A DNA stretch of 64,000 nucleotides from Capitulum mitella (lineage: Eukaryota; Arthropoda; Thecostraca; Pollicipedomorpha; Pollicipedidae). The translations under genes were made by a program, and so were the position numbers. The DNA is taken from the NCBI GenBank assembly GCA_030062745.1, contig CP099839.1, positions 34,753,293-34,817,292 of the forward strand, read 5' to 3'. This document shows, one piece after another, positions 960 through 61,644 of this stretch; position 1 is the first letter of the stretch; each line of letters opens with the position of its first letter. Below the pieces are notes generated by a model. The model was not told the DNA's origin. It made no database searches and saw only the letters and a program-made list of their open reading frames with translations.

Positions 960-3900
960 GTGAATCGCAGCTTGCAAACGTCAGATGTTCACGTGCGGGT
1001 TTCAGTCACAAACAACCGGTGCAGACTAGGCGAGGAGGTCCCATGCTTTCTGCCGGCGTTGTTTTTCTACGGATTTTCAACACCAGACGTTTCAGAAGCT
1101 CGGGTTCAGAACACGCTGTCTTCCCGGAATAAATAGTCCCCACTCCCCCAAATACTGCACCCGCATCCGAAAATGTACCACTTTTCTGAAATGACTATTC
1201 TTTAACTACTCAAAAACAAGCCATGCTATTCATCGTGGCACTTAGCGTCGTCAGAGGCACCAAGAACGAATTTGGAGTATTCTTATTTCGCATGAAGAAA
1301 GCAATGACCTTGCCATTCCTGGCTCGAACTGGTTCATTCACACATGCGAACGTCTAGTATTTTAATGCGGTGACATTTCGCCCCCCACAATGCACCAATG
1401 TTCCGATCTCACGCAGTTTACAATATTGAAGCATTTTCAATAAGACTGTACCAGTTTTACTTCCTAAATGGGCACTTGACCCGGCATTGAATAGGGTATT
1501 TTGCCACCTTCCAATAACTGTGGGGGGGTGGCCTTTAACGCCACCCCCGACTATTCTAGGGAACAATTAGTCCAATTCGGTTAATTTAAACGCCAGTCGA
1601 TAGTGCCGAACCTTGCGGTCCTATGACGTATACATTTTTACTTTTGGGTCACTGATGACGTCGTAGGCTAGGTCGCACACGAAAAAGTGACCATTTCCTC
1701 CACAGTCGCCAAATCACAATGAACACAGGCCGAGACTGAAGTTTGCGTGGTGTTCCTGGTATATTTCAATATTGTCTTACTCTCATATTTTAAGTACCCT
1801 CTCACCCAAAGTTATAAAAAGTCAATGCCACAGCTTGGGCGAAATTTGACCTCCGTTATAACGTGTCATGCAGTGCATTTTTCCGGGCCTATTTGACACG
1901 GTGCCTTTAAAAAAGACACTTTCAGAGGCCCTTGCACACAAAAAAAACTTCAAATCTTGAAATGGCTTACTTATCGTAGACACGCAACATTGCAACATTT
2001 TGTGGCTTGAAACTCGGACTACCACAAGCATGCTAGTTACCTCCCTCTGTCATCTTTGCATGACCCTTCAAGGCAGTTTGTCCCATATTGCATATTTCCA
2101 CGGAATGTTGCACAACACTGCACAGGACAATATCTCCACACCGGTCGTCCATAACGTCAAACAGACGCCACCAGGTTACTCGCTGGGATGAACTGTGTAT
2201 AAAAGCACTAAAGGCCAAGCTACGAAAAATGTGGCAATGTTGCGAGAAACTGCTGCGTAAATTATACGTGAATTTAGTTGGAAGAAAATTCGACAATCTA
2301 TCTGGCCGTACGCAAAAGTCATTTTATTCACCTCCGTTTCGAAAATATATGTAAAATGCAACATTTGTAAAAGGAAATAAAAGATTTGTAAAATGTGTTC
2401 TAACTGGGCCCAGAGAATGAAAAATACATATCTGACAAAGCATGGCCTAAAATGAGGTCAGAAGACCTATATATCGAACTCACAAGTCATGATGATATGC
2501 AGTGCAAGCCACAGTCACCGCACATTGTATAAGCACCGACAATACGGTGGTGAAGTAAAATCGAAAGTCTAAGATGACCTCGTTTCCAGATTTTGGTCAG
2601 TATCTCCGCATCTGGTGTAAGAAAAGGTGCTGGAAGTTTCAGGAAGCTACACTCATTTCTTCGGGAGATATCTGAGAAATGCGCCGGTGGGCGTTAACCC
2701 CCAGCCAATGAACCAGTGTGAACTCTACTTTCACACGAGGAGGTCGATTTGGCCCTAAACCGTTAGGTTTTCCGTTGTGCAGGTACTTTGTGCACTTTCT
2801 TACGAATTTTGATTATGCGTTACATGAACATCTGAGTTTCCAACACAGGACGCAGGAATGGCCCCACGTGACCTTTCGGGAAGGCATGCCAGCTCAGTTT
2901 GCGGCCGCTTCAGACTAGCAATCGCTTCTTAAGTTATGTCAGTCCTTTAACTAGGTACCTGACAATGCTATGATTTCAGTTGAGATTCAGCATGAAACTT
3001 TTGATAATTGACCATCCACATCATCAGTAAAATGTCTGGACACTGTCAAGGGCAGTTGCAGGAGACTTACTGCGTTGTGCAGCGCCACGTTGAAGTGAGT
3101 CCTAGGTGCTAAAAACAATGTATGGCTCTATAACTAAAAATTTCGCATTCCGTAACATCGATGCAATGAACATATTTTGTACAGGAAAGAATATCGAAAC
3201 TTGATACATTGTAACAGTATTCAGCTTATGTTACGTGGTTTATCTGCCATCAACGACACCACTTAATATACAGTTGCCTAATATGCCAGAGACAATAACT
3301 ACGAAACCGTAAGTCTGACCACCTAAAATTTGAACTGTCTTGTTTTGCGTCCAACGGAATCCCTAGGAACAATTTCCAACAAAATATGACGCATGAGAGC
3401 TGGTGTCCCCACAGTTTTTTTTTTGCAGTTCGCCTCAGAACAAGGGCTTTGATCGCTTTGAAAGTTTGCATTGCTGAGGCCATAGGTGTATAATTGGGAC
3501 AAATTTTGGCATGGAAAAATAAATTCATCGAACCCCAAAATGTGGCATTCATGACGTGTTGGCAGCGGTTTACTTTATAAAGCAACAAAGCCCATGAACG
3601 GGTCAAGATATTGCTTTGGAATTCTGTATCAGTAATTTCGTTTGTTATGGAAAGCTCCAAGCCAAAAATATACAAAGTTACACCCCTGGCTGAGGCGGAC
3701 ACCTTTTCACGGGTTTTCCGAAAATTTTAAGTCAATTTCTTGGAAGATAACTGACCTCTGATTACTTTTTCCAAGGGCATGACATGCAGAAATAACGTTA
3801 CGGCGGCGGTCCTCATCGGATAATAAAAGTTTTCAACATTTTAGGGTACTAAGTATTACTTAATCTTAGACAGGGGTGTCACCCAAAGTCTCAGTGACCT

Positions 3901-6002
3901 CTGCACAACAGTATTTTCTGGAGTCATGGTCACCTAGTCAATCATCAACGAAGGTCATCGAACTTTTTGGCGTTTTGTCGAAATCGGAGGGGTCATGGAG
4001 GGGTCATGATTAAATCCGAAACACATATTTGCACACCAACAGTAGTCTGAGTCCTTTTTCATCGTCCAAAGCCATTTTTGGGCCTTTTGAAAGCGTCCCA
4101 TTTTTACGTCCTATAGGACCCAATAAAAACCAGAATCAACCGTTATGATCTCGTTTGAAACTGTTTGTAAGGCCACTGCGCGACCTGAAAGGGTCAAGCT
4201 GAGTATCATCGTGTCGCTTAACGACCACGCTACACGCTCGTTTTTATGCCGACGCTCTAACACGTCAGCTTTGGAAGTGGCTGAGGGGTCGCACCCCCTC
4301 CTGTTCACGCTCACTGAAGCAGCCAAGCCTCCACCAGACCGACAGAGACACTGTCGGCTGGCGGCTGGCTCGTACTTCTACTGCGACTCGGTGCCTGTCT
4401 GGGCTGCCGGCCCACATGACATCTGGAACCAACTGACTGCTTCCCACGCCCATCGGTAGCAGCCGCGGCAATGCTTGATTTCGCTGGTGGTTACTGGGAA
4501 CCTTCTTTTAGAGAGACATTTGAGACATTTGAGCTGTCGGTAGTACAAGGAAAGAAGTGGCGTGCCGAGAGCAAAACATATTTACAAAAGCGACAGGATG
4601 CATCCGCTTGGAACCCGTCGCTTACCTCGCAGGCCGGGGTTTGGGTTTTCGGTTTGTTCTGGACCGGTTGACCGCGAGCGGTATCGGCCATGAAGGCCCA
4701 CCGTCTCAGACTCCATATTGCCCAGACGTCCGAGTATCCGAGCCTTCAGATCGCCGGACATCTAGCATGCAGTCAGCCACTGACGGTGCCAAGGTTCTGG
4801 GTCATGGTACAGCCCTGGGGGAGGGATCACTGGCCTGTATCGATTCCGAAACACTGGCAGGCTCCTTTTGAATCAGTCGCTCGATGCGGGAGATGCTGCT
4901 GACGAACGACGTCGACAAAGCACACTGCCAATATATGGCAGTGTAAATCTTCGTTACGTTGACTCAGCCTGTCACCGCCTGACTGTCTCCCAGCGGATCG
5001 GATTCTGTCACGAGCGGCGGGAAAAACACATCGGGCTGAGTCGGCCTCCCCAGTCCATGCAGATGCTCATTGTAGGTAACTGATTATATCCGAACGAATC
5101 TGATAATCTCAGGCAGAAAACGCGACGACGGAACCGACCACGTCCGGTCGGTCCGTCCGCGGGAGACGTGCTGTCCGACTGCCCGCGGCGGCCGGACGGC
5201 ACGCGGCATCATTAGGCGAGGCGGAGTACCGACCGTCTGCCGCCGTGACGTCAGCGCGCAGAGACAGCCGGAGGCGCGTCCGCCGCGCTCTCTCCGCCTG
5301 CGTGGTGTGTCAGGCAGCCTGCTGAAGCTGAGCTCCGTTCGGATGGCTTCAGCACAACTACATACATGTTTCGACATGTTAGAACGTTTGGGATCATGTT
5401 CTGCCTTCCCTTGCAGTTGAAACGGAATGTTCCGTGCCCAAAGCTCTCTTCAGCTTCAGTCAGGACGGTAGACATGCGAGCAAACATTTATTAGAGACAG
5501 GCCCAACTTAATCGCGAGACAGGGACAAACAAATTACAAAAGGGATAGTTTGAGCCCTTGACTAATGTCCATAAATCATTCATTTTAAACTGTTGCCTTT
5601 ACCTCTCCACGATAATCTTCACAGCAGGACGTCAAAGGAATTGAGGGGAAACAGAGGATTTCCCATGGGCGGAACCAGACCATGGGCTACGGGGGGGGAG
5701 CAGTCTCCACCCATGTAACTTAACGTACTCCAAAATGTTGATTTCTTCTCAAATTTCGTTCACTTCGTTCCGTCATTTTGGAAAATCATGCGTATAAGCC
5801 AATGTCTGAGAGCTGATCTTGATCGATCGAAGATAGCTGTGGCCCAAGGCAAGAGATTTCCATGATCAAATTTTCATTTGGAAAATGACGTGGTTCCTGA
5901 CAATTGACCCCACGTCGTCGGGATACCATCGGCCATTGCATTCCTCGACTAATTGTACGGCGCTGAAGTAATTGCATCATGGGTGCTTGAAGACCCTAGA
6001 CT
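960..6002. other. Intergenic sequence, mostly unrecognised
   Basis: No exon with convincing splice signals and no recognisable protein. The stretch near 3750-4140 contains repeated GGTCA/TGACC words like those in the MITE families elsewhere in the window and may be very old transposon sequence. A minus-strand ORF at 3250-3702 (about 150 codons) resembles no family I know and lies in low-GC sequence. A GC-rich patch lies around 5100-5350. Confidence 0.35.
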
Positions 6003-6749
6003 TTGGCTCTATTCCCTTACCCATAACGCTAGAATGCATATCCGTAAGGGTGGCTCATTCGCACCCCCCCCCCAAATCTCGAGAATTATTCGTCCTATTC
6101 GATTGCAACAAACGGCAATTGATTCCGGATGACGTAAACAGCATTCTTCCAAAAAGAAGTTTTGGAAATCTTAAGGGAGGGAGCCAAAAGGGAGCCAGAA
6201 ATAAAAAAAATGTACTTTAGCTTGTTATTGCTCCGACATTTATTGACCGGCATCGATGCAAATAGTTTGAATCGAGACCTATTCGACGGGACTTTTCTCC
6301 TTGACCCAGACGTCTGGAATCTTGACAAAATTCATACGCGTTCACAGGGCCTGGAAAATGAGAGATTTTTTTACTGAAATGGCATAAAAGTTTACAGTTT
6401 AAACTTTTTTTAAGCTTTGACAATAGGTTTTCTTCTAAGGAAGTACAAATCGTTCTACGTTATTTGTATAATATTGGTATAAGTGTTGCAAGGGGCACGA
6501 AAAGGCAAAACTGTCATGGTCACATGTTCATCAGGTCAACTTATCACTTTTGCCTGCAGTGACCTCAAATGCCTATGGAATGGCTATGTGTTCATTTCAT
6601 GGTGTTAAATTCGATCCCTGTCAATCGAACTGACCATATTTTCAAAAGCCCTGTTTATGACTGTCGCAATATGAGATATTCGCGCCAACATTTTAGATCA
6701 TAGCTCCGTGATCCGACCTGATATCACCCTTGGTTCTATGACAGAACTT

Positions 6750-7035
6750 TGTATCGCATGGCTTCGTATCGCATTTCTTCGTACGCACATGTTCGTATCG
6801 CAGAACTTCGTAAGCAGAAAACTTCTTATACGCAAATCTTCAAAACGCAAAAGTTCGTACTTGCATATCTTCGTATACTCATTTCTTCGTATCCGCAAAA
6901 CTTCTTATACGCATTTCTTCGTATCGCATTTTTTCGTCTACGCAAATCTTTGTATCGCATTTCATCGTACGCGCAAATCTTATTACCCCATTCTTTCGTA
7001 CACGCAAATCTTCTTATCGTGTTTCACTGTACTTA
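6750..7035 (+). repeat. Left subterminal array of ~15-bp TTCGTAT...CGCA motifs
   Basis: A degenerate array in which TTCGTA, TACGCAAA and TCGCATTTC words alternate about every 15-17 bp. It mirrors the array at 8190-8440 on the other strand. Its frames are open only because the motif lacks stops, so the peptides read from it are not genes. Confidence 0.75.
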
Positions 7036-7689
7036 TGCTCTTTATTTGTACTTTCGCGCACAACGACGCGTGAATGTCTTCCTTCTTTTTAGCAACGCAA
7101 ATGATATTCACTGGTTTGGTAATACGTAAACTGCGAATGAGAAAGTGCACTCGATCGGTGGATACAGGTAAGGCAGGGAATGTCCCAGAATGCTGATGGA
7201 TGAGCAAAATCCTTTTTAAGCTGTTCATTTCAAGCATCACCATAATATCATGGTTTGGTAGACTGAAAATGTGTACAATAGAGCAAATCCTAATATTTGT
7301 ATGCCTGCACGGAAATCCCGTTTCAGATCAGCCAAAGCCCGCTTTACGGGTCAGCGGATATCTTGTTGTGCACGTAAATTGGATTCGGTAACAGTGATGC
7401 ATCAGACCATGGGCTTAGGAACAGGGTGGGGGAGGCCATGCCCGCACTTTTTGGGAAATCTAACATGAGTCCTATGGAGGAAAACGTCTCTGCCTCCCTC
7501 CCCCGAAGCGATACGAATGTCTCCGTATACGATTTGTTGGGCTCCTTTTTTCTCTTTTTTTTACGCATTTTGCCCGAACGATTTGCATGGCTTTTGGCTC
7601 GGCGTACCTACAAGGTACCTACTTACTACCTACAAGGAACTTCTCGCCTGTACTCTGAACCCAATACTCAGTAATGCAATTCCAGTTCA

Positions 7690-7925
7690 ACGAATAATTC
7701 TGCGTCCGGCCTCTTCAGCCAGAGAGGACAGTGGAGGAATCCTTTTCGTGCCGCATAATGTTGCAACACGGCCTCCCGGCCGGATTTACCCTCTCTGGTC
7801 AGTGGCCATTGACTACAGTATGAATGGTGGGCCCGAACAATTCGAGTCCCGGGTCGCTATTTCTTGGACTCGAAGTCGGCGGCGTCGGGACCAGAGTCCT
7901 TACCCCATCGGCCGCGAGCACGGCG
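7690..7925 (-). mobile_element. tRNA-derived SINE-like sequence (minus strand)
   Basis: Read on the minus strand, an A-box-like stretch (CGGCCGATGGGG, near 7903-7917) is followed at tRNA-like distance by a B-box-like GACTTCGAGTCC (7866-7877), matching the internal RNA polymerase III promoter of tRNAs and tRNA-derived SINEs. A second B-box-like CGGGACTCGAATTG follows near 7850. I cannot fold a clean cloverleaf, so a SINE head is likelier than a functional tRNA. It lies inside the 1.72-kb insertion. The 3' limit is uncertain. Confidence 0.45.
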
Positions 7926-8189
7926 GATAACTTCCTGGCATCTAAGGTATCTTTTCATGACAAAATACAATATTTCTTTTCGATTGATATGTAAGAAAAT
8001 GGCAGTGTTATTCAAGTAACTTTTCGGCTGCTGCGTCCTCTGGCGGCCACCAGGTGTCATTGCGTCATCAGAACAGTCATCTCGTGTTTGAAGCCGCGAT
8101 GCGAAAAAAAGACAACATGACACCTTCCGTATGATTATTAACACGACGGCAAATTTCGATTAACTCCTCCCCCCGAAAAACAAATACGA

Positions 8190-8440
8190 GGCACGCAGTT
8201 TTGCGTATACGAAGAAATGCGATGTGAAGATTTGCATGTACGAAGCAATGCGGTACGAAGGAATGGGTATGCGATGAAATGCATCCATGAAGTTTTGAGG
8301 ACACGAAGAATTCGAAGTTTTGCGTATACGAAGCTATGCGCGTACGAATATTTGCGTGCGAAAAACTGTATACGAGGATTTGCCGTAGGAAGATCTGTGT
8401 ACGAAGAAATGCGGTACGAAGAAATGCGATACAAATTTCT
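8190..8440 (-). repeat. Right subterminal array, inverted relative to 6750-7035
   Basis: Words such as TACGAAGAAATGCG and TTTGCGTATACGAAG recur throughout. They are the reverse complement of the left array, giving the insertion long, imperfect inverted arms around a 1.1-kb centre. Confidence 0.75.
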
Positions 8441-8925
8441 GTCCGGACACGATCACCCTAGAACCTGAAATACAGGTAGAGGATACTGTGCTGGGTCGTA
8501 TGTACTCTGGATTGTTTTACTATGAAAATGAGCATAAAAAAGGTGTACATAAGGCCAAATTTTGACGTCTGATCCACACCTGACCTTGTTAGATGATCTC
8601 GAGTCAACAAAAATATTTCGTTGCGTCCGTCGTTCCTTTTTCTTATACACTCATATCACATTTAAAGTTCTATTTTAAAAACTCTGTTGACAGCCATTTT
8701 TCCTTTTTCTTCTACGGTGCCAAAAATGACCCAAGGTGCCTCCCAAAGACTTAGCCTTGCTCCTTCCCTGACCAGAAAATGAAAATTTGACATAATTTAT
8801 AGCACGAATATATAGGCAAAATGATCAGGTTTTGAAAAGCTGCTTCAAACGCCTGGAAATGGCAAGCAAGAAACCGTAGGGAGGTTTCTAAAGTCCCTCC
8901 CCTCCCCAAAACGGGAATAGGTTAC

Positions 8926-10620
8926 GCTGCAGTCCACTGCGGCAAATGGATTGGCACCACAGCCGGCTAGCGCAATTATTTTACACAGCATTTAATCACT
9001 TCCCAGCCGACTAGCACTACCATCTCGACAGTCATGAAACAGATTTGTGGTGTACAAAAAGTCGCATCTTTGACGAGATAAATGTTTCTTTTCTAATTCC
9101 ATGGTGTTTAGTGCAGTGACTGGTGTGGCCGGAAATAACTGTAGCGGAACTAGAAGCTCTCTAGCCCACATCTGACCCTAAGCATGCCACAAACATTTTA
9201 AACACAGTCCACGTGACTATTGGTAAAGTGTAAATAATTGGCGGTTTTGCATTTTCAGGCGATCGTTGTTCTACAATCCGAGGGCGCACCCACGTTGGGC
9301 CATAAGGAGGAACATCAGTGTCTTAGGCGACGCAGTTCGTCAGACTGTATATCAGTCTTTTAGTTAGGCAATATTGGGTGATAAAATAAATTTCAAAAGT
9401 GGAATACATGCTTTGTAATTATTTTTAAGATCTATCATTTAAGCAACATTCACTAAGGAACTCATTCAAAATTCCATGCCTCAACATAAAACTATTTACA
9501 TCCCGACTATCTGCAGCATTTTCCCCAATGAAGATCAGAAATCAGTCTTTAACATGCTACACTTGGCCTAAAGAATAGTCACGGCCTTTATACAGCAGAG
9601 TGCACCTTTGCCGACATTATTTGTGGTATAGGTTTTGTGCAAAGTTACCATTTTGTCCCTGTCTCTTTCTTATCCACGTTGCCAATGCAGATGGATAAAG
9701 TTCGGCAATAAGTAGATTTGTGTTACTTCAAGAGGTCAGATTCTATCTTTTGTAACATGCCTCTCAACAGAGTATACACCTTAGCCATGGTTCTGACAGG
9801 CGCAGCACGCGACACCGGGCTCCATAGTGGTCGCGACGTTGGGCCGGAAGGATAAACTGAACGTGGACCAAGACACAAGGACTCTTCCACGGCCCTGCGC
9901 GGCCCCCACTCAGCTGGTGGACTGAGGACTGTGGCGAGACAGTCCTCAGTCAGAGCTGCCGGAGAGCCACCGTGGTGTCGTCCCCGACCGATTTAGCCAG
10001 CAGCCGAAACTCCCGTGCAGTCCGCACGCAGCAACATCGCGATGATCGTTGTGATCTTGATAAATATCCGAGGTCTAGTGCTAACCCTCTGATGCTTTGT
10101 TAGAGTTCTTCGTTTTAGGACTAATCTATGTTACGTCAATGACCAAAAACAATGCATCCCATTTGACCAACATGAGAAAACACATATGTAGTATGGAAGA
10201 GAACAGCACAGGGGACTTTTTGGATCAGTTTATCTCTGTTTTGCATGTTTCGACAAGATCGTGTCATTTTTATATTACAGAACAACACCGCCTACAGCAA
10301 TTTTCAGGCTGAGTGGTATAATCTGCTTCGGTAACGTATGCAAGGACTCATATCTCATCATCATACCATTTCTTAAGCTCACTGAATATTCTGCATAAAT
10401 TTACATTTAGATTTACACGCGGTTGAGTTCAGCATTATCCAGAGAGGCAAGGAACCTAAATACCTCCTCCGCGGCCATCGGAAACGAGACGAGAAACGAG
10501 AAACGAGAACGCCGGAAGCAGTTTGAGACGCCGAACGTCGACAGAGAACGTCGCTGTCTTAGGACGGGAAAAACTGGCATGGCCGGCTGCAGGATTCCGG
10601 TGCGTTCTTGTGGCACCACA
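8926..10620. other. Intergenic; GC-rich patch and hairpin at 9.8-10.05 kb
   Basis: No coding exon is recognisable. A GC-rich patch at about 9790-10050 contains a perfect inverted repeat, GACTGAGGACTGT (9920-9932) and ACAGTCCTCAGTC (9939-9951), with a 6-nt loop. What it does is unknown. Confidence 0.4.
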
Positions 10621-10950
10621 GGGCCAGGTCACTGCTCACGTTCTGTCAGAGGACCAGGGCACGGCTAACGTTCTGTCAGAGGACTACGGCATTGCTCACG
10701 TTCTGTCAGAGAACTACGGCACTGCTAACGTTTTGTCAGAGGACCAAGGCATTGCTCTCGTCTTGTCAGAGAACCAGGGTACTGCTAACGTTCTGTCAGA
10801 GAACCAGGGTACCGTTAACGTTCTGTCAGAGAACCACGGCACTGCTCACATTCTGTCAGAGGTCGACGGCACTGCTCGCGTTCTTTCAGAGGACTAGGGC
10901 ACTGCTGACGTCGTGCCAGGGAACCACGACATTGTTCACGTCCTGTAAGA
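10621..10950 (+). repeat. 30-bp minisatellite, 11 units, coding-phase period
   Basis: Eleven consecutive 30-bp units are visible with a near-invariant TTCTGTCAGAG core and point differences in the GGCACTGCTAACG half. The period is exactly ten codons, so one plus-strand frame reads a decapeptide repeat of the form GTANVLSEDQ for nine or ten units before a TAG at 10895-10897. No ATG-initiated frame feeds into it. It lies in the expected first intron of the minus-strand exon at 11044-11134, which argues against translation, but a plus-strand repeat protein cannot be excluded. Confidence 0.9.
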
Positions 10951-11043
10951 GTCCATTTGTGGATCTTGGCATCGCCAGTGGCACTTGGCGCTAGCTGACC
11001 ATCCAATTATTCGCAACAGTAAACCAATCGGCAAGGCACTCAC

Positions 11044-17246: not shown

Positions 17247-18396
17247 TTAACCCTATTCCCAGCAGGGGGGCTAAATCGGCCTCCCTCGGATTTTTTACTT
17301 GCCGATTCTAGGCTTTTTGGCGCAGCTTCACGAAACGTGGTGACTTTTCCTAGCTATTCATTCTCCGTGCCGTGACAAAGTTTCAAAATTCTATTTTGCA
17401 CAAGGGCGGAGCCAGGCAACGCTTTTGGGAGGCGCCTCAGGCCATTTTTGGCCATGTTGAGGGTAAAAGGAAAACGCCTGCCAAAAATAGCGTTCTTAAG
17501 ATAAAACTTAAAACTTCATATGCATAGCATAGCAAAATAGTTATGCAACATGCAGATACAATCTTGTTCATGTGAGGTCACTTTACAATGTCAGGTCAAG
17601 GTCAGAAAACAAAATTTGGTTTTATAGTAACAATTTCGGCGCTGTTTTTTTCTAAATGCCAAATCCGGAATATATGTGCCGTAAAAAGGTACCCTCTACT
17701 TGTGTATCAAATCCCAGCTTGATATCAGGTCGGGTCACGGAGCTATGACCTAAAATTTCAGCGCGCATACCCTATATCGCAATAGCCATAAAATCAAATT
17801 TTTGAAATAGAGTGAATGCAAATGATTGAAGACGTTTACAGATAAAATTACATGCACACGAAATCATCCAAAGTGGTTCCAAGGTCACTGGAGGTCATTT
17901 AAGGTCAATGTCACAAGTTGATCTGAAGAACGTGTGGCCATGACAGTTTCCCCTTTTTCATGTCCCTGGCACCGCCTATGCTAACATTATACAAACATAA
18001 TGCGAATTGTACTTATTTAGCATGACATGACTAGGACAAGCCAAAAAGGTGTTTTTGCCTTTTTTGTTCATTCAGTTGTTGAAAAAGCAGTCAGTCTATT
18101 TTTGAAACCCTGTGAACGCCCATGAATCATGCCAGTTTCATCGAAATCGGTCCATAAACAACGGAGTTATAAGAAGTCCAAAAATACCCCTGATTTTGAC
18201 ATTTTTGCCCTCTTGTATCCATCTCTTTCAAAATTTTGAAAATTTCTTCTTATATAATGTAGTTCACGTCATGGCAAATCGATTGCCGTTTGTGGCAATG
18301 AAATCGAATGTGTAGTTCTCGAGGTCTCGGGGGGGGGGGCGAATCCCCCCTGCCGGGAATCGACCATACCGTGTAGCCCTCCGGGAATAAGGTTAA
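17247..18396 (-). mobile_element. TTAA MITE, family B, reverse orientation
   Basis: TTAACCCTATTCCC at the left and GGGAATAAGGTTAA at the right are inverted termini abutting TTAA on both sides, as in piggyBac-type transposition. The interior is the reverse complement of the copies at 19.6-22.0 kb and 48.9-50.1 kb. At about 1150 bp it is slightly shorter than intact copies. The DR1 motif of the family is degraded here. Confidence 0.85.
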
Positions 18397-18792
18397 ACCC
18401 ATTGGCAAAATGCTGCATTTCAAATGCCTGAACTCGTTTGACGTTGGCTGACCCGACCTGGCTTATTTGTGCTTTGGGGTAAATATAGCACGATACATAT
18501 AGGTACAAATGCATATAGGTTAAGCACAATCATCCTGTGGACCAACTCCGCGCGGAGTTCGTCGGGATCGGATGAACAGATTCTGAAGGGAAAAGACGGA
18601 ATTTTCACAATTTGGTATTGACTGACCTCGATTAACCTGACTCAAACTACCTGCGCCTTTGGATTGTATGTTAAATACACAGGCTGATGCCCCACCATGG
18701 TCTGTAGCTAGCTTCCAGGCAACCGTAACATACGAGGCACCGCACGTGCGCCCTGGAGTCCGACCCGCGTGCGGCCGTCCGCCGCTGCCTAA

Positions 18793-19572: not shown

Positions 19573-20782
19573 GTAACCCTATTCCTGGAGGGCCAGACGG
19601 TATGGTCCATTCCCGGCAGGGGGGACGGATTCGGCCCCCTGAGATCTCGAGAACTACATTTCCGATTTCATCGCAGCAAACGGCAAACGATTTGCCATGA
19701 CGTGAACTACATTTTTATAAAAAGAAATTTTCAAAATTGTGAAAGGTGTGGATACAGGGGGGTAAAAATGTCAAAATCAGGGGTATTTTTGGACTTCTTA
19801 TAACTCCGTTGTTTATGGACCGATTTCGATGAAACTGGCATGAATCGAGATATTATGGATAAGACTTTTACCATTGGTACACACATCTGGAATTTTGAGA
19901 AAATTCATGGGCGTTCACAGGGTTTCAAAAATAGGATTAGTTTTCTAACAACTGAATGAACAAAACAGCCAGAAACACTTTTTGGGCTTCTGCTAGTCAT
20001 GTTATGCTAAAGAAGTACAAATCGCATTGCATTGTTTGCATAATGTTAGCACAGGCGGTGCCAGGGACATGAAAAAGGGGAACTGTCAAGGTCACACGTT
20101 CTTCAGATCAACTTGTGACCTTTGACCTTAAATGACCTCCAGTGGCCTTGGAGTCACCTGAAATGATCTCGTGTGCATTTGATATTATCTGTAAACGTTT
20201 TTAATTATTTGAATTCACTCCATTTCAAAAATTTCATTTCATGGCTATTGCGATATAAGATACGCGCACTAACATTTTAGGTCATAGCTCCGTAACCCGA
20301 CCTGATATCAAGCTGAAACTTGATACACAAGTAGAGGGCACCTTTCTACGTCATACATATTCCAGGTTTGGCATTCGAAAAAACAGCGCCGAAATTATTG
20401 CAATAAAACCAAATTTTGACTTTTGACCTTGACCTGACCTTGTAAAGTAACCTCAGATGGACAAAATTACATCTGCACATTGCCCAACTATTTAGCTATA
20501 CATCCATGTAACATTTTAAGTCCTATCTTAAAAACGCTTTTTTTCGCAGACATTTTCCTTTTACCCTCAACATGGCCAAAAATGGCCTGAGGCGCCTCCC
20601 AAAAACGTTGCCTGGCTCCGCCCCTGAGCAAAATAGAATTTTGAAATTTTGTCACGGCACGTAGAAAGAATAGCTAGGAAAGTTCACAACGTTTCGTGAA
20701 GTTGCGTTAAGAAGCCTAGAATTGGCAAGCAGAAAACCCGAAGGGGGGCGGATTCAGCCACCCCTGCAGGGAATAGGATTAA
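19573..20782 (+). mobile_element. TTAA MITE, family B, first of a joined pair
   Basis: It begins GTAACCCTATTCC (TTAA decayed to GTAA) and ends GGGAATAGGATTAA. The 1210-bp interior matches the next copy throughout. It carries a perfect DR1 nuclear-receptor motif TGACCTTTGACCT at 20116-20128. It has no coding capacity. Its right TTAA is also the left TTAA of the next element. Confidence 0.9.
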
Positions 20783-21991
20783 CCCTATTCCCGGAGGGCT
20801 AGACGGTATGGCCGATTCCCGGCAGGGGGGGCGGATTCGGCCCCCCCCTGAGATCTCGAGAACTACTTATCCGATTTCATCGCAACAAACGGCAATCGAT
20901 TTGCCGTGACGTGAACTACATTTTGATAAAAAGAAATTTTCGAAATTTTGAAATCTGTGGATACAGGGGGGCAAAAATGTCAAAATTGGGGGTACTTTTT
21001 GACTTCTTATAACTCCGTTGTTTATGGACCGATTTCGATGAAACTGGCATCAATCGAGAGATCATGGATAGGGCTTTTACCATGGGTATGCAAATTTGAA
21101 ATTTTGAGAAAATTCATGGGCGTTCACAGGGTTTCAAAAATAGGGGGATTAGTTTTCCAATAACGGAATGAACAAAAGAGGCAAAAACACTTTTTTAGCT
21201 TCTGCTAGTCATGTTTTGCTAAAGAAGTACAAATCGCATTACAATGTTTGTATAATGTTAGCATAGGCGGTGCCAGGGACATAAAAAGGGGGAACTGTCA
21301 TGGTCACACGTTTCTCAGATCAACTTGTGACCTTTGACCTTAAATGACCTCCAGTGACCTTGGGGTCACCTGGAATGATGTCGTGTGCATTCAATATTAT
21401 CTGTAAACGTTTTTAATCGATCAAATTCACTCTATTCCAAAAAATTCATTTTTTGGCTTTTGCGATATAGGGTACGTGCACTGACATTTTAGATCATAGC
21501 TCCGTGACCTGACCTGATATCAAGCTGAAACTTGGTACACAAGTAGAGGGCATCTTTCTACGTCATATATATTCCGGGTTTGGCATTTGAAAAAACGGCG
21601 CCGAAATTATTGCGAAAAAACAAATTTTGAATTTTGACCTTGACCTGACCTTGTAAATTGACCTCAGATAAACAAAATTACATATGCACATTGCCCAACT
21701 ATTTAGCTATATATTCGTATAAAGTTTTAAGTTCTATCTTAAAAACTCTGTTTTTGGCAGACATTTTCCTTTTACCCTCAACATGGCCAAAAATGACCTG
21801 AGGTGCCTCCCAAAAACGTTGCCTGGCTCCGCCCCTGAGCAAAATAGAATTTCGAAATTTTGTCACGGCGCGTGGAAGGAATAGCTAGGAAAAGTCACCA
21901 AGTTTCGTGAAGCTGCGTCGAAAAGCCTGGAATTGGCAAGCAAAAAACCCGAGGGGGCGGATTCCGCCCCCCCTGCCGGGAATAGGGTTAA
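20779..21991 (+). mobile_element. TTAA MITE, family B, intact reference copy
   Basis: Both ends are intact: TTAACCCTATTCCCGG at the left and CCGGGAATAGGGTTAA at the right, a 16-bp inverted terminus including the TTAA target duplication. Just inside the left end is a G7...C7 inverted motif around CGGATTCGG. A perfect DR1 (TGACCTTTGACCT) lies at 21328-21340. The CCCTA terminus and TTAA target are hallmarks of the piggyBac superfamily. The 1213-bp element has no transposase. Confidence 0.92.
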
Positions 21992-31784: not shown

Positions 31785-32184
31785 CCCGGACCGGGTACCA
31801 AACAGCAGTACTGCCGACAGACCCGGGACCGGGTACCAGACACAGCAGTACTGCCGACAGATCCGGGACCGGGTACCAGACACAGCAGTACTGCCGACAG
31901 ATCCGGGACCGGGTACCAGACACAGCAGTACTGCCGACAGATCCGGGACGGGGCACCAGACACAGCAGTACTGCCGACAGATCCGGGACCGGGTACCAGA
32001 GACAGCGGTACTGCGGACAGATCCGGGACTGGGTACCAGAGACAGCGGTACTGCCGGCAGATCCGGGACCGGGTACCAGACACAGCAGTACTGCCGACAG
32101 ATCCGGGACCGGGTATCAGACACAGCAGTACTGCCGACAGATCCGGGACCGGGTACCAGACACAGCGGTACTGCCGTCTAATCC
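31785..32184. repeat. 40-bp minisatellite, about 10 units
   Basis: The unit GATCCGGGACCGGGTACCAG plus ACACAGCAGTACTGCCGACA repeats with an exact 40-bp period and few substitutions. Because 40 is not a multiple of three and the unit has no stops in most frames, long ORFs appear on both strands; they are compositional. It lies about 330 bp upstream of the secreted-protein gene's start. Confidence 0.97.
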
Positions 32185-33159: not shown

Positions 33160-34390
33160 TTAACCCGCCCCCGACTGGAGGGGGGACAGTTGACCGCCCC
33201 CCTAAGGTTTTTCTGGGATTGCGAGAGAACTAACGATCACAGAGCCACGAAACTTTGTGTACCTTTTGCTTCATTATTTTTACACTTTGTGTCAAAGTTT
33301 TGACCTCAGGTCGGGTCAGGCGCCTGGCTTAGGTCAGGTCAAATGGACCTATGTCCAAAAAAGTATAGCGCCCTGTAACTTTTTCGGAAAACAAGATGTC
33401 ACAATAATACTGTCAGGGATTAGTGATCGTGATAGGTGCAACAAATATGCTATCTCAGATTTTTCGGAATTCTTCGGGTCATTGACCTAAGGTGAAGCCT
33501 ATTTTTAAGACATGCTTTTTTCGGAAATTGACGGAATATTTCATAACATTTTTAGTGTAGAGTAAAGCAGACATCTAGTTACTGTCATTGAGCATCAATG
33601 ACTTCCAGCCATTGACCTGAGGTCAGGTCACGAATAACTGTAGTCAGCCAAAATGTGCCACCGTCAAAATCAGCGATGAATTACTCAAAATGAGTAGAAA
33701 AAGGCAGAACTGGTTTGCACAGACGTAAGTAATACCAGGAACCTTTAAAAGTTTTACAAAATTGCGTATTTTGGAAACAAACAAGCTCTCGCGAATAAAG
33801 CTCCGCCAGTTGTGTAGATTGGTAACTAATGAATTTTTCCAAAATTTAGGCATGAAAAACCATCACAAGAACCACTAAGATCAATAAAATTTACATGGAT
33901 AGGTTTTTTCGCGAAAATAAAGCAACGCTAAAATTAGTTCCCGTTAATTTCTTGGTGCGTACCGCTGCGGCGCACGCCGACAGCCGGCGCGAAAATTGCC
34001 GTGTCTTCAACTCAACGTCTCGGCGTATATATTGAACAAATCTGCGAAATTAGATGTGTATCGGCATTTGTGGACCTTTACTTGTGCGCTGGTGCCTTTA
34101 CCTATGCGTTACTAGTCACAACCCTTGAGATTCAGGCCATTTCTCGGCCTCATGCAGTCAGTTATGGGAAAACATATATAGGCATATATAGATAGTTAAT
34201 ATATAAAACGTAAATTGCTTACACGTTATCTACCACTGAAACATGAGACCAGTCTTGAGCTCTACTCGTCACAAGCTTTCCAACGGTGTGCTTATTTTTA
34301 TCGTGCGACCAACCGTTCGTGAGTTAGAGGGGGGCGGCCAACTTCCCCCCAGTCGGGCATGATCGCAACCGACGGTCGTGCGCGGATTAA
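33160..34390 (+). mobile_element. TTAA MITE, family A
   Basis: It starts TTAACCCGCCCCCGACTGG and ends GTCGTGCGCGGATTAA, the inverted, slightly decayed counterpart of the TTAACCCGCGCACGAC end of the copy at 50.1 kb. It shares long collinear blocks with 47.3-48.5 kb and, inverted, with 50.1-51.3 kb. It carries TGACCTGAGGTCAGGTCA at 33613-33630. No ORF of note. About 1.23 kb. Confidence 0.88.
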
Positions 34391-34889
34391 TCTGCCCAGA
34401 GGGAGAGCGCTACGTAATCACCAAACCTAACGTATACCTTTCATAGCAACTTAAACAATATTAAATAGCAAATTCTCCCTAGGAATGGGGAACGATCATG
34501 TTTTTTCCCTTAAAAGTCCAGTAAGTGCTAAAAATCATCTTTTGTTAGCCAAAGCAACAGCTTCTAGAAGGACTGGAAGTTATCCATGGTCGCAAAACAG
34601 CGAAACGGCACTTCCATCTTTTAAGTTTGCCGAGCCCTCCCTGTGATGCCGTTGTTTCTGAGCCCACCGCGGGCGAGGCTGTGACCCTCTCGTGAGGCTT
34701 TTCTTGGTCTGCTGGCGAATAGCCGACATCAAAGCCCTGAAACTTTGCATAGACTACATTACATCTTTTCCGTCTCTTTTACCACAACATTCCTGCTGGT
34801 CGCGTGAGACCATCTAGTTGTAACGAAATTCTCGAAGCCATCGAAGGCCGTTTTTTCTAGATCTGAGCCACATTTTGGCTTCTTCCGAA
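34391..34889. other. No recognisable feature
   Basis: Sequence between two MITEs. The last eight bases are the left target duplication of the next element. Confidence 0.35.
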
Positions 34890-47280: not shown

Positions 47281-48520
47281 TTAACCCGCCCCCGACTGGG
47301 GGCTGCTGACCCCCCCGAGGTTTTTCCAAGATTGCGAGAGAACGAACAGATGCAGCGCCACGAAACTTTGCATACCTTTTGCCTTATCATTTTTACACCT
47401 TGCATCAAATTTTTGACCTCAGGTCAGGTCATTTTCTGACCTAGATCAGGTCAAGTGGGTCTATATCCAAAGTTGTCACTTTTTTGGAGAACATGATGTC
47501 ACAACAAAACTTCATGGATTAGATATCTTGACGGATGCAAGATGTGTGCTATGTCAGCTTTTTCGGAATTTTCCGGGTCATTGACCTAAGGTGAACTCCG
47601 TTTTTAAGACATGTCGATTTTTCGGAATTTGACGGATTTTTTTGAAACAGTTTTAGTGTGCGGTGATGTAGAAACCGATTTACCATCAGTCAACAAAATA
47701 CCAATGACTTCCAGCCATTGACCTGAGGTCAGGTCACGAAAACTGTTATGAACCAAAAGGCACCGCCATCAAAATCGGTGATGAATTGCTCAGAACGGGT
47801 TGAAAATGACAATACTGGCTTGCACATATGCGAGTAATACCAAAAAGTTCAAAACGTTTCAAAAAATTGCATATTTCGGAAATAAACAGATTCTCGCGTA
47901 GAAACCTTCGCCATTTGTGTAAACTGATAACTACATATTTTTTTCCAAAATCTGAGCATGAGAAACCATCAGAATAACCACCAGGACCAGGGAATATTAC
48001 ATGGTAAGGTCTATGTCTCGAAAATAAAGACACGCTAAAATTAGTTCCCGTTAATTTCGTACCGCGTTCGGTCACGGCACCCACCGTGAGTCGGCGCAAA
48101 AATCGCCGTGTCTTTAATTCAACGTTTCGACGCATATATTTAACAAACCAGAGAAATTACGTGTGTATCGGCATCCGCGGACTTTCATCTGTTCATTGGT
48201 ACCTTTAGCTAGACATTATAAATCACAGCCCTTGAGATCCAGGCCGGTTTCCGGTTTCCGTTTCACGGTTTCCGGTTCACGAAACCGGTTCTCGGTTTCG
48301 TGCCGCCGGCTGTGATAATACATATTTAGGGCGTAAATGGCTTACATGTTATCTAAAACTAAAAATGAGACCAGTTCCGAGCCCTACTTGTCACGATCTT
48401 TCCAACGGTGTGCTTATTTTTTATCGTGCGACCAGCCGTTCGTGAGTTAGAGAGGGGCGGCCAACCCCCACCACCTCCCAGTCGGGCTGCTCGTCGCCGA
48501 ATGCCAGTGGGATGGGTTAA
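47281..48520 (+). mobile_element. TTAA MITE, family A
   Basis: It starts TTAACCCGCCCCCGACTGG and ends GGGATGGGTTAA, each next to TTAA. It is collinear with 33160-34390. It carries TGACCTGAGGTCAGGTCA at 47719-47736. A local run of CGGTTTCCGGTTTCCG-like repeats (about 48243-48305) is an insertion or expansion absent from the other copies. No coding capacity. Confidence 0.9.
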
Positions 48521-48565
48521 CCCCGTCTTGCCACGCCGGAGGACGTGACCCCATTGATGAAAAGC

Positions 48566-48893: not shown

Positions 48894-50105
48894 TTAACCC
48901 TATTCCCGGAGGGCTAGACAGTATGGTCGATTCCCGGCAGGGGGGGCGGATTCGGCCCCCCGAGATCTCGAGAACTACTAGTCCGATTTCATCGCAACAA
49001 ACGGCAATCGATTCGCCATGACGTGAACTACATTTTTAAAAAAACAAATTTCCAAAATTTTCGAATTTGCGGATGCAGGGGGGCAAAAATGTCAAAATGG
49101 GGGGTACTTTTGGACTTCTTATAACTCCGTCGTTTATCGACCGATTTTGATGAAACTGGCATGAATCGAGAGATTGTGGATAGGGCTTTTACCATGGGTC
49201 CACAAATCTGAAATTTGAGAAAGTTCATGGGCGTTCACAGGGTTTCAAAAATAGGAGGATTAGTTTTTTAACAACTGAATGAACAAAAAAGGCCATAACA
49301 CTTTTTTGGCTTCTGCTAGTCATGCTATGCTAAAGAAGTACAAATCGCAATACAATGTTTGTATAATGTTAGCATAGGCGGTGCCAGGGACATGAAAAAG
49401 GGGAACTGTCATGGTCACACGTTCTTCAGATCAACTTGTGACCTTTGACCTTAAATGATCTCCAGTGACCTTGGGGTCACTTGGAATGATCTCGTGTGCA
49501 TTTGATATTATCTGTAAACGTTTTCAATCATTCGAATTCAGTCTATTCCAAAAATTTTATTTTATGGCTATTGCGATATAGGGTACGCGTACTGACATTT
49601 TAGGTCATAGCTTCGTGACCCGACCCGATATCAAGCTGAAACTTGGTACACAAGTAGAGGGCACCTTTCTACGACATATATATTCCGGGTTTGGCATTTG
49701 AAAAAGCGACGCCGAAATTATTGCAAAAAAAAACAAATTTTGACTTTTGACCTGGACCTGACCTTGTAAAGTGACCTCAGACAAACAAAATTTTTTTGTG
49801 CACATTTCCCAACTATTTAGCTATACATCCATTTAAAGGTCTAACTTCTATCTTAAAAACTCTGTTTTTGGCAGACATTTTTCTTCTACCCTCAACAGGG
49901 GCAAAAATTGCCTGAGGTGCCTCCCAAAAACGTTGTCTGGCTCCGCCCCTGAGCAATGTAGAATTGTGAAATTTTGTCACAACGTGTGGAAAGAATAGTT
50001 AGGAAAAGTCACCAAGTTTCGTGAAGCTGCGTCAAAAAGCCTGGAATTGGCAAGCAAAAAACCCGAGGGGGGCGGATTCAGCCCTCCTGCCGGGAATAGG
50101 GTTAA
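48894..50105 (+). mobile_element. TTAA MITE, family B, intact copy
   Basis: The termini are TTAACCCTATTCCCGG and CCGGGAATAGGGTTAA. It is 1212 bp and collinear with the 20779-21991 copy throughout. A perfect DR1 TGACCTTTGACCT is at 49439-49451. The right TTAA (50102-50105) is shared with the following family A element. Confidence 0.92.
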
Positions 50106-51326
50106 CCCGCGCACGACCGTCGGTCCGTCCCGAACACCGGCGACTGGGGGGGGCAGTTGACTGCCCCCCCTCTAACTCACGAACGGTTGGTCGCACGATA
50201 AAAATAAGCATACCGTTGGAAAGCCCGTCACGAGTAGAGCACGAAACTGGTCTCATTTTTAGTTTTAGATAATATGTAAGCCAATTTACGCCCTATATAT
50301 GTTTTCTCATAGCCGACTGCATGAGACCGAGAAATGGCCTGAATCTCAAGGGCTGTAACTAATAACGCATAGGTAAAGGCACCAGCGCACAAGTAAATGT
50401 CCGCGGATGCCGATACACGTCTTATTTCCTCAGATTTGTTCAATATATACGCCGAAACGTTGAGTTAAAGACACCGTAATTCTCCCGTCAGGCGTCACTG
50501 TGCGCCGCTGCCGTATGCGGTATCAAATTGATGGGAACTAATTTTAGCGTTCCTTTATTTTCGCGAAAAAAGACGTAGTATGTAAATTTTATTGATCTTT
50601 GTGGTTCTTGTGATGGTTTCTCATGCTTAAACTTTGGAAAAATTGATTAGTTGCCAATCTACAAAGTTGGCGGAGCTTTATTCGCGAGAGCCTGTTTATT
50701 TCCAAAATATGCTACTTTTTCAAACTTTTTGAGGTTCCTGGTATTACCTACGTCTGTGCAAGCTAGTTGTGCCATTTTCTACCCATTCTGAGTAATTCAT
50801 CGTCGATTTTGACGGTGGTACATTTTGGCCCACTTCAGTTATTCGTGACCTGACCTCAGGTCAATGGCTGGAAGTCACTGATACTTTTCCCAATGACGGT
50901 AACTAGATGTCTGCTTCACTCCACACTAAAAATGTGATGAAATATTCCGTCAATTTCAGAAAAAAACGGCGATATGTCTTAAAAATGGGCTTGACCTTAG
51001 GTCAATGACCCGGAAAATTCCGAAAAATCCGAGATTGCAGATTTGTTGCATCTATCACGATCACTAATCCCTGAAAGTATTATTGAGATATCTTGTTTTG
51101 CGAAAAAGTTAGAGGGCACTAAACTTTTTTGGACTTAGGTCTGTTTGACCTGGTCTAGGTCAGGCACCTGACCTGACCTGAGGTCAAAATTTTGACACGA
51201 GACGTAAAATTGATGGAGCAAAAGGTACACAAAGTTTTGTGACTCTGTGTTAGTTCGTTCTCTCGCAATCTCAGAAAAACCTCAGGGGGGGCAGTCAACT
51301 GCCCCCCCCAGTCGGGGACGGGTTAA
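50102..51326 (-). mobile_element. TTAA MITE, family A, reverse orientation, joined to a B element
   Basis: It begins TTAACCCGCGCACGACCG and ends CAGTCGGGGACGGGTTAA (TTAA 51323-51326). It is the reverse complement of the copies at 33.2 and 47.3 kb. Near both ends lies the palindrome built on GCAGTTGACTGC with flanking G and C runs. The nuclear-receptor-like motif is at 50846-50863 in inverted sense. No ORF. Confidence 0.92.
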
Positions 51327-57538: not shown

Positions 57539-58430
57539 ATACACCCGACCCCGATTGGTGGGAGTCGGTTGACCGCCCACCGACGTTTTCCAAGATTGCG
57601 AGAGAACGAACGAACGCAGTGCCACGAAACTTCATGAATCTTTTGTATGATTATTTCTCCACTTTGTAACAAATTTTTAACCTCACGTGGAAGTCAGGCT
57701 CCTGACCTAGGTCAGGTCGGATGGACCCATCTTAGAGCCCTGTATTTTTTCGGAGAACATGACATCAAAATAAACCTTCAGAAATTAAAGATTTTGATAA
57801 ATGCGACAAATTTACTATCTCGGACTTTTCGGAAATTTCTAGGTCAATGACCAAAGGTCAAGCCTATTTTTAACACATGTCGTTTTTTTCGAAAATTGGC
57901 GAGTTTTTAACAACTTGAATTTGGGGAGACGCAGACATCCAGTTTCCGTCAATGGCCAAAGTTTCAGTGATCTCTTGACCACTGGCCTGAGGTCAGGTCA
58001 CGAAGGACTGTTAAGAGTCAAAATGCACTGCCATCAAAATCGGCGATGAATGACTCAGTTCGGGTGGAAGATGGCAAAACTGGCTTGCACAACTGTGAAT
58101 AAGATCAAGAAGCTCAAAAAGTTTCGAAAATTGCATATTTTGGAAACAAACAGTCTTACGCGAAAAGCTCCATCATTTGTGTAGATTAATAACTGCAGAA
58201 TTCTTTTCAGTATTAAACCACGGGAAACTATCACAGAAACCATTCGAACGAAAAACAACTTAGAATGGCTTCTTTCGCGAAAGAACGCTAAAATCAGTTC
58301 CCGTGTTTCATACCGCGTTCGGTTAAGGCGACCGCCGGCAGTCGGCGCGAAAATCGCCGGATCTTTAGCTCGACGTTGCCGCGTAAATGTTAAACAAATC
58401 AGACTAATTAGACGTGTATCGGCGTAATTA
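57539..58430 (+). mobile_element. TTAA MITE, family A, truncated
   Basis: It opens ACACCCGACCCCGATTGG (TTAA lost) and stays collinear with the other family A copies through the GGTCAGGTCACGAA block (57992) and the TCAGTTCCCGT block (58296). It stops before the last 250-300 bp of the element. The everted half-site motif is mutated to GGCCTGAGGTCAGGTCA. Confidence 0.8.
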
Positions 58431-58526: not shown

Positions 58527-59168
58527 TCAACCGCCGTCGGCAGAGTTCGATCGGCTCTTAACCACACTCAACGGAATTTTGGGCCGGGACCTCCGGCTCC
58601 CACCATCTGTGGGCGAGATCAGCCCCGACGGGCAGCGTTTCGCAGGGCGACTCAGAGGGGGCGGAGGACGCATTAGTTGCGGAGAGGCTGGTGAGGTCGC
58701 CGCCGGCAGCGGAGGAGTAACGGGGGGGAGGGGGACCGGGCTCGGTGGCGACGGTGGCTCTGTGTCCAGGATGAAGTCCTGATGCGCTCCGCGCGAGCCA
58801 CCCGCCCCGCAGCACTCAGGTCCGGAGCTCCCGTCCGGACAGCGGGCTCTGACGGACGAAAAGCCGGCCCGCGCACGGGAGGGTGCCAGGGAGTCCCGGC
58901 TGTAGAGCCCCTCCTGGGAAAGCGGGGGTGTGGAGGCATGGATGGGTACGGAAGCCTCGCTGCGTTGCCCCTCGGAAGAAGATGGCGGGTCGCTCGCACC
59001 CGCCTGTCGTAGCTGAGGTGCGGGAGGGCCTCGCTGAGGCCCCCGGCCATGCTGAACAGGAGTCCAGCCCTTCTCCGTCGGTTCCTCAGCCGGTCCCGGG
59101 CGCCCAAGGGCGTCCCCAGGTGGAGCCAGCTGGGAGGGCGCACGCGGCGGCGCCGGCTCCGCGCTCAC
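58527..59168 (-). CDS. Pro/Ser-rich open frame downstream of the eS27-like exon
   Basis: The minus-strand frame that contains the eS27-like exon stays open for another 214 codons to a TGA at 58529-58527. It is rich in Pro, Ser and Arg, with stretches such as HQDFILDTEPPSPPSPVPLP and a basic end RPKIPLSVVKSRSNSADGG. The last part has an exon-like look (SRSNS resembles a phosphorylation site). However, the region is GC-rich and the plus strand is also open over 58883-59257. Either this is the disordered tail of a fusion protein, or the frame is chance beyond the donor at 59168. Confidence 0.3.
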   Translation of the reverse strand: MSAEPAPPRAPSQLAPPGDALGRPGPAEEPTEKGWTPVQHGRGPQRGPPAPQLRQAGASDPPSSSEGQRSEASVPIHASTPPLSQEGLYSRDSLAPSRARAGFSSVRARCPDGSSGPECCGAGGSRGAHQDFILDTEPPSPPSPVPLPPVTPPLPAATSPASPQLMRPPPPLSRPAKRCPSGLISPTDGGSRRSRPKIPLSVVKSRSNSADGG

Positions 59169-59281
59169 TTTTCTTTTCTTCCAGACTTTTCCACCAGCCG
59201 ACTGGCACACAAATGAAGAGCAGCCTTTACACTGCACTGGAATCTGCGAGTGGCTGAACACAGTCGTGGTCTTGAAGCAGA
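59169..59281 (-). CDS. Exon resembling the zinc-ribbon core of ribosomal protein eS27
   Basis: On the minus strand a strong acceptor (TTCTCCATTCACTTCTAG) precedes 113 bp ending at GTGAGC (donor from 59168). The frame reads CFKTTTVFSHSQIPVQC, KGCSSFVCQSAGGK, then VWKKRK. In eS27 the corresponding segment has CYKITTVFSHAQ, then C-x2-C, then CQPTGGK, so the TTVFSH core, the second cysteine pair and the CQ..GGK turn match. eS27 is a small-subunit protein that binds zinc through two cysteine pairs. After GGK the usual RLTEGCSFRRK end is absent, and the N-terminal exon was not found. It is either a diverged paralogue exon or a decaying pseudogene. Confidence 0.65.
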
Positions 59282-60636
59282 CTAGAAGTGAATGGAGAAA
59301 ACATTTCTTAAAACTTTACATCATCATTATGCCAACATTATTCAAACAAATAGGACTTGATCGCCGGGAATGAACTGAGATTTATGTTGTTGTCCGAGGT
59401 GAAGACGTAATATTATTGAGCATATATAATTAAATAAGGCACGACAATATAATTCATACTGTCGTGTTTTTCAATTTACTGCTACACTGTTATGATGGTT
59501 TTTGGACCTTCATGTTGACGTTTTTAATACCCTGTGTACCAGAATGTCCAGTTTTACTGGATTGTGGCTGAGACCCGGCAGTGGCAATGCTGCCAGTCCT
59601 TTAAATTGGGATTGACAGCACAGGGCAGGCATGATTTGAGTGATGCCTTATGACTTACCATAACGTGCCAATGATGCGATGTTTCTGTGGCATTTCATAA
59701 CAACATTAAAGACTTTTGATTGTGGCCATACCTACCACATTAGTGTTGGTGACTTATGTATTGTTGTATCCTTCATTTCATATTTGAGCTGACAAGCAAA
59801 GATGTCAACTAATTGTGCTGTGCTCACCTGTTGGTTGTGGGTTGGTGGTAAATGTAAATACCAAGAGCGTAGCTTTTCCTTGTTTTTATATCCAAAAGAA
59901 GATGGCACTAGGTTACCTGGGTGCACAAGTATGTTAGAGGAGAGAAATTTAACTTAGCTAATGAAGCAGTTTGCTTGGAATACTTCGTTGGGGCAAACTG
60001 TGGCCCATTATATTTTGTGGAGAAGAGTGGTTGCCAGTATCAAACCTGTGCTGAAAAGTGGTGCATTGCCATCCAAAAATCCTTCATTATGCATGTCAAG
60101 GTGTTAGATTTTGGGCCAAGGGTGGGTCCACAGCACTGGTTTTTGCCAGTCAGAGGGGGGACCAAATTCCAAAAAGGCATGCTGATTAAAAAAACTCATT
60201 GGACTCTGCTTCATTTTACCTTAAAGACTGTCATGAAACAAACTTTTCTTCATAACTGCTTCCTAGATTTTCTTCGGATTCCAGACCTGAGTCAACTTGG
60301 CTTGTTTTTCTGTTGGGAGACATGCCCTGTGCCCCCCCCCCCACAGATGCATTATTATTTGTGGCACTACTTGGGTGGCAACTGGCATATTTGTTTGGAT
60401 GTGTTAGTGCTAGCTTTGCCATTAGTTTATTTCCATATTGGGAAAGGTTTGCCATTATCTTGGTATGACAAGCTTTTGGTGCTAATTTACAAGTAGATAT
60501 CACCTATCAGTCCCAGTAGGTACAGCACACTAAGAACAACAATTAATTGCATAGATATTCATGTGGCATGTGCTAAGAAGCAAAATTGGTCAAAATAATG
60601 CATCACTGATGCGAGTGAAAATGCATTTTAATTTGA
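59282..60636. other. AT-rich sequence without a supported gene
   Basis: Opposed ORFs of 191 codons (plus, 59921-60496) and 90 codons (minus, 60231-60503) overlap. Neither shows conserved motifs. The minus one has a more protein-like Ser/Asn/Lys composition (SGLESEENLGSSYEE), but no splice context decides it. No eS27 N-terminal exon is visible here. Confidence 0.3.
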
Positions 60637-61330: not shown

Positions 61331-61644
61331 GCCTAAATCGGCCAGAACACACACAGCACAACACGTATCAGACGAATGGCTTATTTTTTCAATGCGCCAC
61401 GTATGTAAATCGCGCAAATGCAAAAAAAAAATCACGTGTTCGGTCACGTTTTTTTCTCGGGCACTGCTCACTTGAAGTCACTAAGAAGAAAACAACAGAC
61501 CAATAAAGGGAAGAAATAATCGGAAACTGTTATTAACATGGTAACCGCATTCATTTCCCTCCATGCGGTTTCTACCGTAAGACTACCTAGGGTACAATGT
61601 AGCCGCTGCCTCGTCCTCCTGGGTTTTGCTTTTCTATTTTAGGT
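61331..61644. other. Spacer before the 248-bp tandem repeat
   Basis: AT-rich, with nothing assignable. It may be the missing 5' part of the Helitron. Confidence 0.3.

Follow-up and report, generated by a model that had tools for sequence, protein, structure and literature searches.

A non-autonomous foldback-type element of probable Mutator affinity nested in a diverged family-B MITE of Capitulum mitella

The window analysed here, meaning the whole stretch of 64,000 nucleotides of Capitulum mitella contig CP099839.1 (C1), contains at 6003..8925 (+) a diverged copy of a family-B MITE that is split by an insert. The octamer ATCACCCT is present at 6723-6730 and again at 8452-8459, on both flanks of the insert. 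When the window was compared with itself by local alignment, the stretches that the host MITE shares with other family-B copies broke off at 6726 and restarted at 8452 with continuous target coordinates, as for example in 19597-20310 followed by 20307-20748. Four other family-B copies, delimited by self-comparison and joined-flank alignment, provide references for the empty site: 17247..18403 (-, interrupted internally by a gap of about 60 bp), 19574..20785 (+), 20779..21991 (+) and 48894..50108 (+). Once the insert is taken out, the host can be aligned through the site to all four without a gap, at 64-65% identity overall, and removal of 1729 bases leaves 1194, rebuilding a family-B MITE of about 1.19 kb. 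An earlier note on this DNA had proposed a nested insertion in a family-B MITE, and this is borne out by the flanking octamers, the gap-free empty site and the length that remains; the order of events proposed there also holds, with the MITE arriving first and the foldback insert second. The four reference copies are 86-91% alike among themselves, whereas the host is only 64-65% like them, and it is therefore a much older or more diverged family-B copy. Its termini read TTGG... and ...GGTTAC with a decayed TTAA, and those of the references read TTAACCCTATTCC and its complement. These ends suggest a TTAA target, presumably as in piggyBac-type MITEs. The head-to-tail copies at 19574-20785 and 20779-21991 appear to have one TTAA in common.

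The inserted foldback-type element occupies 6732..8451 (+) and is 1720 bp long, its ends being fixed by other copies with the same tips. At 6732..6744 (+) lies tip A, which reads GGTTCTATGACAG here and GGTTCCATGACAG in the family form, and at 8439..8451 (-) lies tip B, CGTGTCCGGACAG reading inwards. Other copies start with GGTTCC and finish with ACACG, so the T at 6731 belongs to the target, and flank comparison at fixed tips gives a target duplication of 9 bp with one mismatch, ATCACCCTT at 6723..6731 on the left and ATCACCCTA at 8452..8460 on the right (8/9 match). The earlier note had placed the ends at 6731 and 8451; the right end stands, and the left end moves one base further in. Behind the tips lie arrays of 14-16-bp units resembling CTTCGTATCGCATTT, at 6747..7024 (+) on the left and, inverted, at 8182..8438 (-) on the right, where the inner edge is approximate; both were delimited by tandem-repeat analysis, self-comparison and unit spacing. 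Tandem periods in the arms are 15-16 at 6747-7019 and 15 at 8399-8432, and the arm at 6740-7024 is 68% complementary to that at 8443-8182, in agreement with the inverted arrays of a motif of about 15 bp described previously. The middle, at 7026..8185 (+), is about 1.16 kb long, with approximate edges, and runs a few bases into the right array; copy alignment shows it to be common to the family. It is non-coding: the longest stop-to-stop frame in the family-majority sequence is 123 aa, and the seven window frames in or reaching into it gave no Pfam family match at E<=1. Scanning the window for Rfam families and for tRNAs returned no match in either case.

The window's own assembly comprises 16 contigs that total 477 Mb. 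Querying it with the insert plus its octamers yielded 430 candidates; 40 of them were scored, in 139 aligned pieces, and the best 30 of the 430, including the window's own copy, were taken as loci. These 30 loci have tips, arrays and middle in common, and their array units are spaced by 14 bp (107 times), 15 bp (188) or 16 bp (215). The copies are dispersed on many contigs with differing flanks, with the exception of L002 and L025, which are segmental duplicates 87% alike. At up to three mismatches, the 28-mer of tip A has 95 matches in the 477 Mb and that of tip B has 100, while reversed-pattern controls for both have none; the further copies of the insert ends for which the earlier note suggested searching are thus present in the assembly.

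Target duplications were assessed at 33 end pairs with ends fixed at the tips. These are a non-random set, 23 coming from the best genome-search matches and 10 being picked for their tips or unusual length. A 9-bp duplication with at least seven matching bases was found in 20/33, five of them perfect, against 2 of 1056 mispaired flanks, which gives the chance level; an earlier, smaller count had found at least 7/9 for 12 out of 23 end pairs, with none among 506 mispaired ones. Duplications of 10 bp with at least eight matches occurred in four of the 33 pairs, and nine pairs, including the false pairing L005, had no 8-10-bp duplication by the limits used. The 8-bp duplications that had been expected in other copies did not materialise (0/33 with at least seven matches). 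Target duplications of hAT elements are 8 bp long, and the earlier view that these ends are unlike those of typical hAT holds. The same note had held that copies ending elsewhere, or lacking 8-bp duplications, would speak against its account, and this came about in part, through the one-base shift of the left end and the usual duplication of 9 bp. At L015, oriented with tip A on the left, the sequence TACGTCCGGACGGC adjoining the B tip resembles an extra piece of tip, and GTTACTTCCGG is repeated slightly further out, so that the target side of this locus looks partly doubled.

This is a foldback-type element by its long inverted arms, which consist of tandem sub-repeats, and by its dispersed copies flanked by target duplications. 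Tandem motif arrays can also come from slippage, and a local expansion of a simple motif beside a chance octamer match would need no transposon at all. This explanation is refuted by the copies on many contigs, which have the same tips, arrays and middle in different flanks with 9-bp duplications, and by the empty site, and we give it practically no credence.

The middle could be aligned in 24 copies, which are 86-92% like the majority sequence (87% for the window copy) and about 80% alike pairwise (75-92%). This star-like divergence indicates an old burst; the family is old and decaying, and the window element is one decayed copy of it. The history of nesting runs in both directions. When one family-B copy was compared against 47 sequences, some of them incomplete, a foldback element inside family B was seen solely in the window's own copy, with its diverged host. 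The reverse, a family-B copy inside a foldback element, was seen at L026 (at 2853-4068, with the locus oriented A-left), L051, L066 and L068, the inserted copies being 80-95% like the query copy. Beyond L066, in L075, the foldback middle picks up again after the family-B insertion; the sequence of L068 is incomplete. Since nesting occurs both ways, family B appears to have been mobile both before and after the foldback burst. The locus offers a clean and readable case in which two non-autonomous families have nested one inside the other.

The two tips of the foldback element differ in their outermost 8 bp and are identical from the ninth base, AACTTCGTATCGC coming next after both. In the outermost 80 bp of the arrays that follow the tips, similarity is about 81% throughout, whether arms of one type or of the two types are compared. 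Among the 195 tip matches, 104 make up 52 nearest facing pairs within 15 kb, most spanning 1.5-2.1 kb, and 91 are unpaired at the sensitivity used. All 52 facing pairs join an A tip with a B tip. The middle likewise has a single orientation relative to the tips in the 30 loci, with an A-type tip on the left in 27/30 and a B-type tip on the right in 26/30; the better-scoring tip is consistent on at least one side throughout (at L014 by one base), and the right end of L021 is a false match. An apparent inversion of the middle against the tips was rejected, as it vanished once the loci were turned to the query strand. A transposase that pairs solely two unlike ends, giving a two-ended, directional rule in a Mutator-like transposon, might lie behind this pattern, and we regard that idea as speculative and rather unlikely. 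Because the copies come from common masters, the uniform A-B pairing demonstrates that the tips have retained their identity and does not mean that mixed pairs would be immobile. Descent of all copies from one master could account for the pattern as well, and mostly unlike tips are already described for Tm1 of root-knot nematodes in the available part of its report (PMC3169594). With so many copies that can be aligned and whose two tips are unlike, how the ends of foldback elements are paired becomes a testable question.

An autonomous partner with a transposase, for which the earlier note had also suggested looking, did not emerge from the places examined. The MULE transposase domain PF10551 has six matches in the genome (22 candidates), none with a tip within 1.5 kb, the best tip-like match nearby being 17/28 bases against 26/28 for the window copy; two of these six places were scanned further and had no tip within about 4.5 kb. 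The single FLYWCH match in the genome is without tips. Ten of the 52 end pairs exceed 2.5 kb, and nine of these were examined, the tenth being a pair of 12.3 kb on C8. As candidate partners, L046, L047, L048 with L054, L049, L051, L052 and L053 were rejected as ordinary elements with extra sequence, and L026 as a long end pair whose extra length is the family-B insertion. L050 was rejected as well, having family arms around a middle built of other dispersed repeats. Its arm pair, at 214-2745, has a 9-bp duplication matching at 7/9, and one piece of its middle, judged by eye, is perhaps a fragment of a Penelope-type reverse transcriptase. There are 43 unpaired A tips and 48 unpaired B tips, and eight of the former were also inspected. 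Five (L065, L067, L069, L070 and L071) lead into an ordinary middle, and two (L066 and L068) have the family-B insertion inside. At L072, which together with L074 spans C11:13072710-13077000, the A tip and array are followed by unrelated sequence from near TTTAACCC, and neither the middle nor a B tip is present in the 2.95 kb that come next, in L074. No transposase was found between A and B tips among these nine long end pairs and eight unpaired A tips.

Several described foldback elements offer a basis for comparison. The TU elements of sea urchin are said to be foldback elements with long inverted arms that have tandem repeats of about 15 bp in their outer part, and reportedly make 8-bp duplications; by this description the repeat-built arms are alike, and the duplications differ from the 9 bp found here. 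A sea-urchin foldback is cited in the report on Tetris of Drosophila virilis, whose authors propose a Mutator origin from duplication length (PMC4079207, in the part available). Tetris resembles the present family in being a non-autonomous foldback with 8-10-bp duplications, and differs in having an arm repeat of about 220 bp rather than 14-16 bp (PMC4079207). The closest described layout is that of Tm1, a Mutator/Foldback element of root-knot nematodes with one coding type that carries a MULE transposase. As far as the available part of its report goes, Tm1 is bounded by 7-bp tips that are unlike each other, inside which lie composite inverted arms with a variable number of ~14-bp units; its duplications are mostly of 9 bp and many of its copies are non-coding (PMC3169594), all of which recalls the family described here. 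The Tm1 unit CGATTCAGTATCGC and the unit here also have GTATCGC in common, which is a lead only, the chance of any common 7-mer being roughly 2-3% by hand estimate (PMC3169594). In contrast, the Tm1 tips A1 and A2 (CGGTTAA and CCTACCC) and motif B (GGA) given in that part of the report are not matched here, where the tips are GGTTCCATGACAG and CGTGTCCGGACAG; the arrays here are longer, the middle is different, and a transposase-coding copy is known in Tm1 and none was found here (PMC3169594). Tm1 also has a purine-rich motif D (PMC3169594). As the tip sequences differ, the element is not filed as Tm1.

Target duplications in the Mutator superfamily are 8-11 bp long according to the available part of a published account (PMC6446971), and the duplications of 9 and 10 bp found here fall within this range, which is not exclusive to MULEs. 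Because no autonomous partner was found at the places examined, we infer Mutator membership from the 9-bp duplication and the layout in common with Tm1. Our preferred reading, to which we give a probability of roughly 0.6, takes 6732-8451 for a non-autonomous DNA transposon of foldback type that moved by cut and paste, mobilised in trans by a Mutator (MULE) transposase. A transposase supplied from elsewhere would recognise both ends; the 14-16-bp units repeated in the inverted arrays would most likely mediate this recognition and may serve as binding sites for the enzyme. The two unlike tips would then be brought together and cut at GG...CG, and insertion at a staggered cut in a family-B MITE that was by then old would give the 9-bp duplication. 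The family would have spread in this way from one or few masters in an old burst and then decayed.

The element could instead have been mobilised by an enzyme from a different superfamily, such as a P/Galileo-like, Merlin, Rehavkus or hAT transposase, with a foldback layout that arose by convergence, and we consider this a real possibility that is on balance doubtful. Foldback layouts do occur with different transposases, as with Galileo and its P-type enzyme, according to the Tm1 authors (PMC3169594, in part). The available part of the account cited above tables Rehavkus with 9-bp duplications and long repeats and Phantom with 8-10 bp, partly not indicated, and some Phantom and Rehavkus Mutator-like elements are reported there to have long terminal repeats and minisatellites; both groups are defined by their transposases, and neither is linked to the tips found here (PMC6446971). 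Merlin-type transposases (PF12762) are plentiful in this genome, with 36 matches, but the ten of these places examined have no tips (best 17/28) and no array motif within 1.5 kb, and the usual duplication is 9 bp, not 8. At L055, L057, L058, L059, L062 and L063, for example, the PF12762 matches lie in open frames of about 290-320 aa, and the Merlin matches possibly represent a young family. As to the kind of finding, this is an ordinary, old and decaying family of a known structural class; if the Mutator assignment is true, Capitulum mitella adds one more animal genome with the Tm1 layout of unlike tips outside repeat arrays.

Another dispersed repeat family, about 1.25 kb long, is also present in the window, with copies 72-84% alike at 33160-34408, 47281-48542, 50081-51326 and 57543-58423, one of which abuts a family-B copy near 50081-50108. 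In an open frame at 58530-59315 (-), 35 residues match the Pfam family of ribosomal protein S27e at E 1.3e-08; the frame is perhaps an exon or a copy of that gene. Tandem arrays lie at 10620-10951 (30-bp unit), 31788-32176 (40-bp unit) and 61636-62371 (248-bp unit), and a 181-base stretch resembling the 248-bp unit reappears at the right edge of the window.
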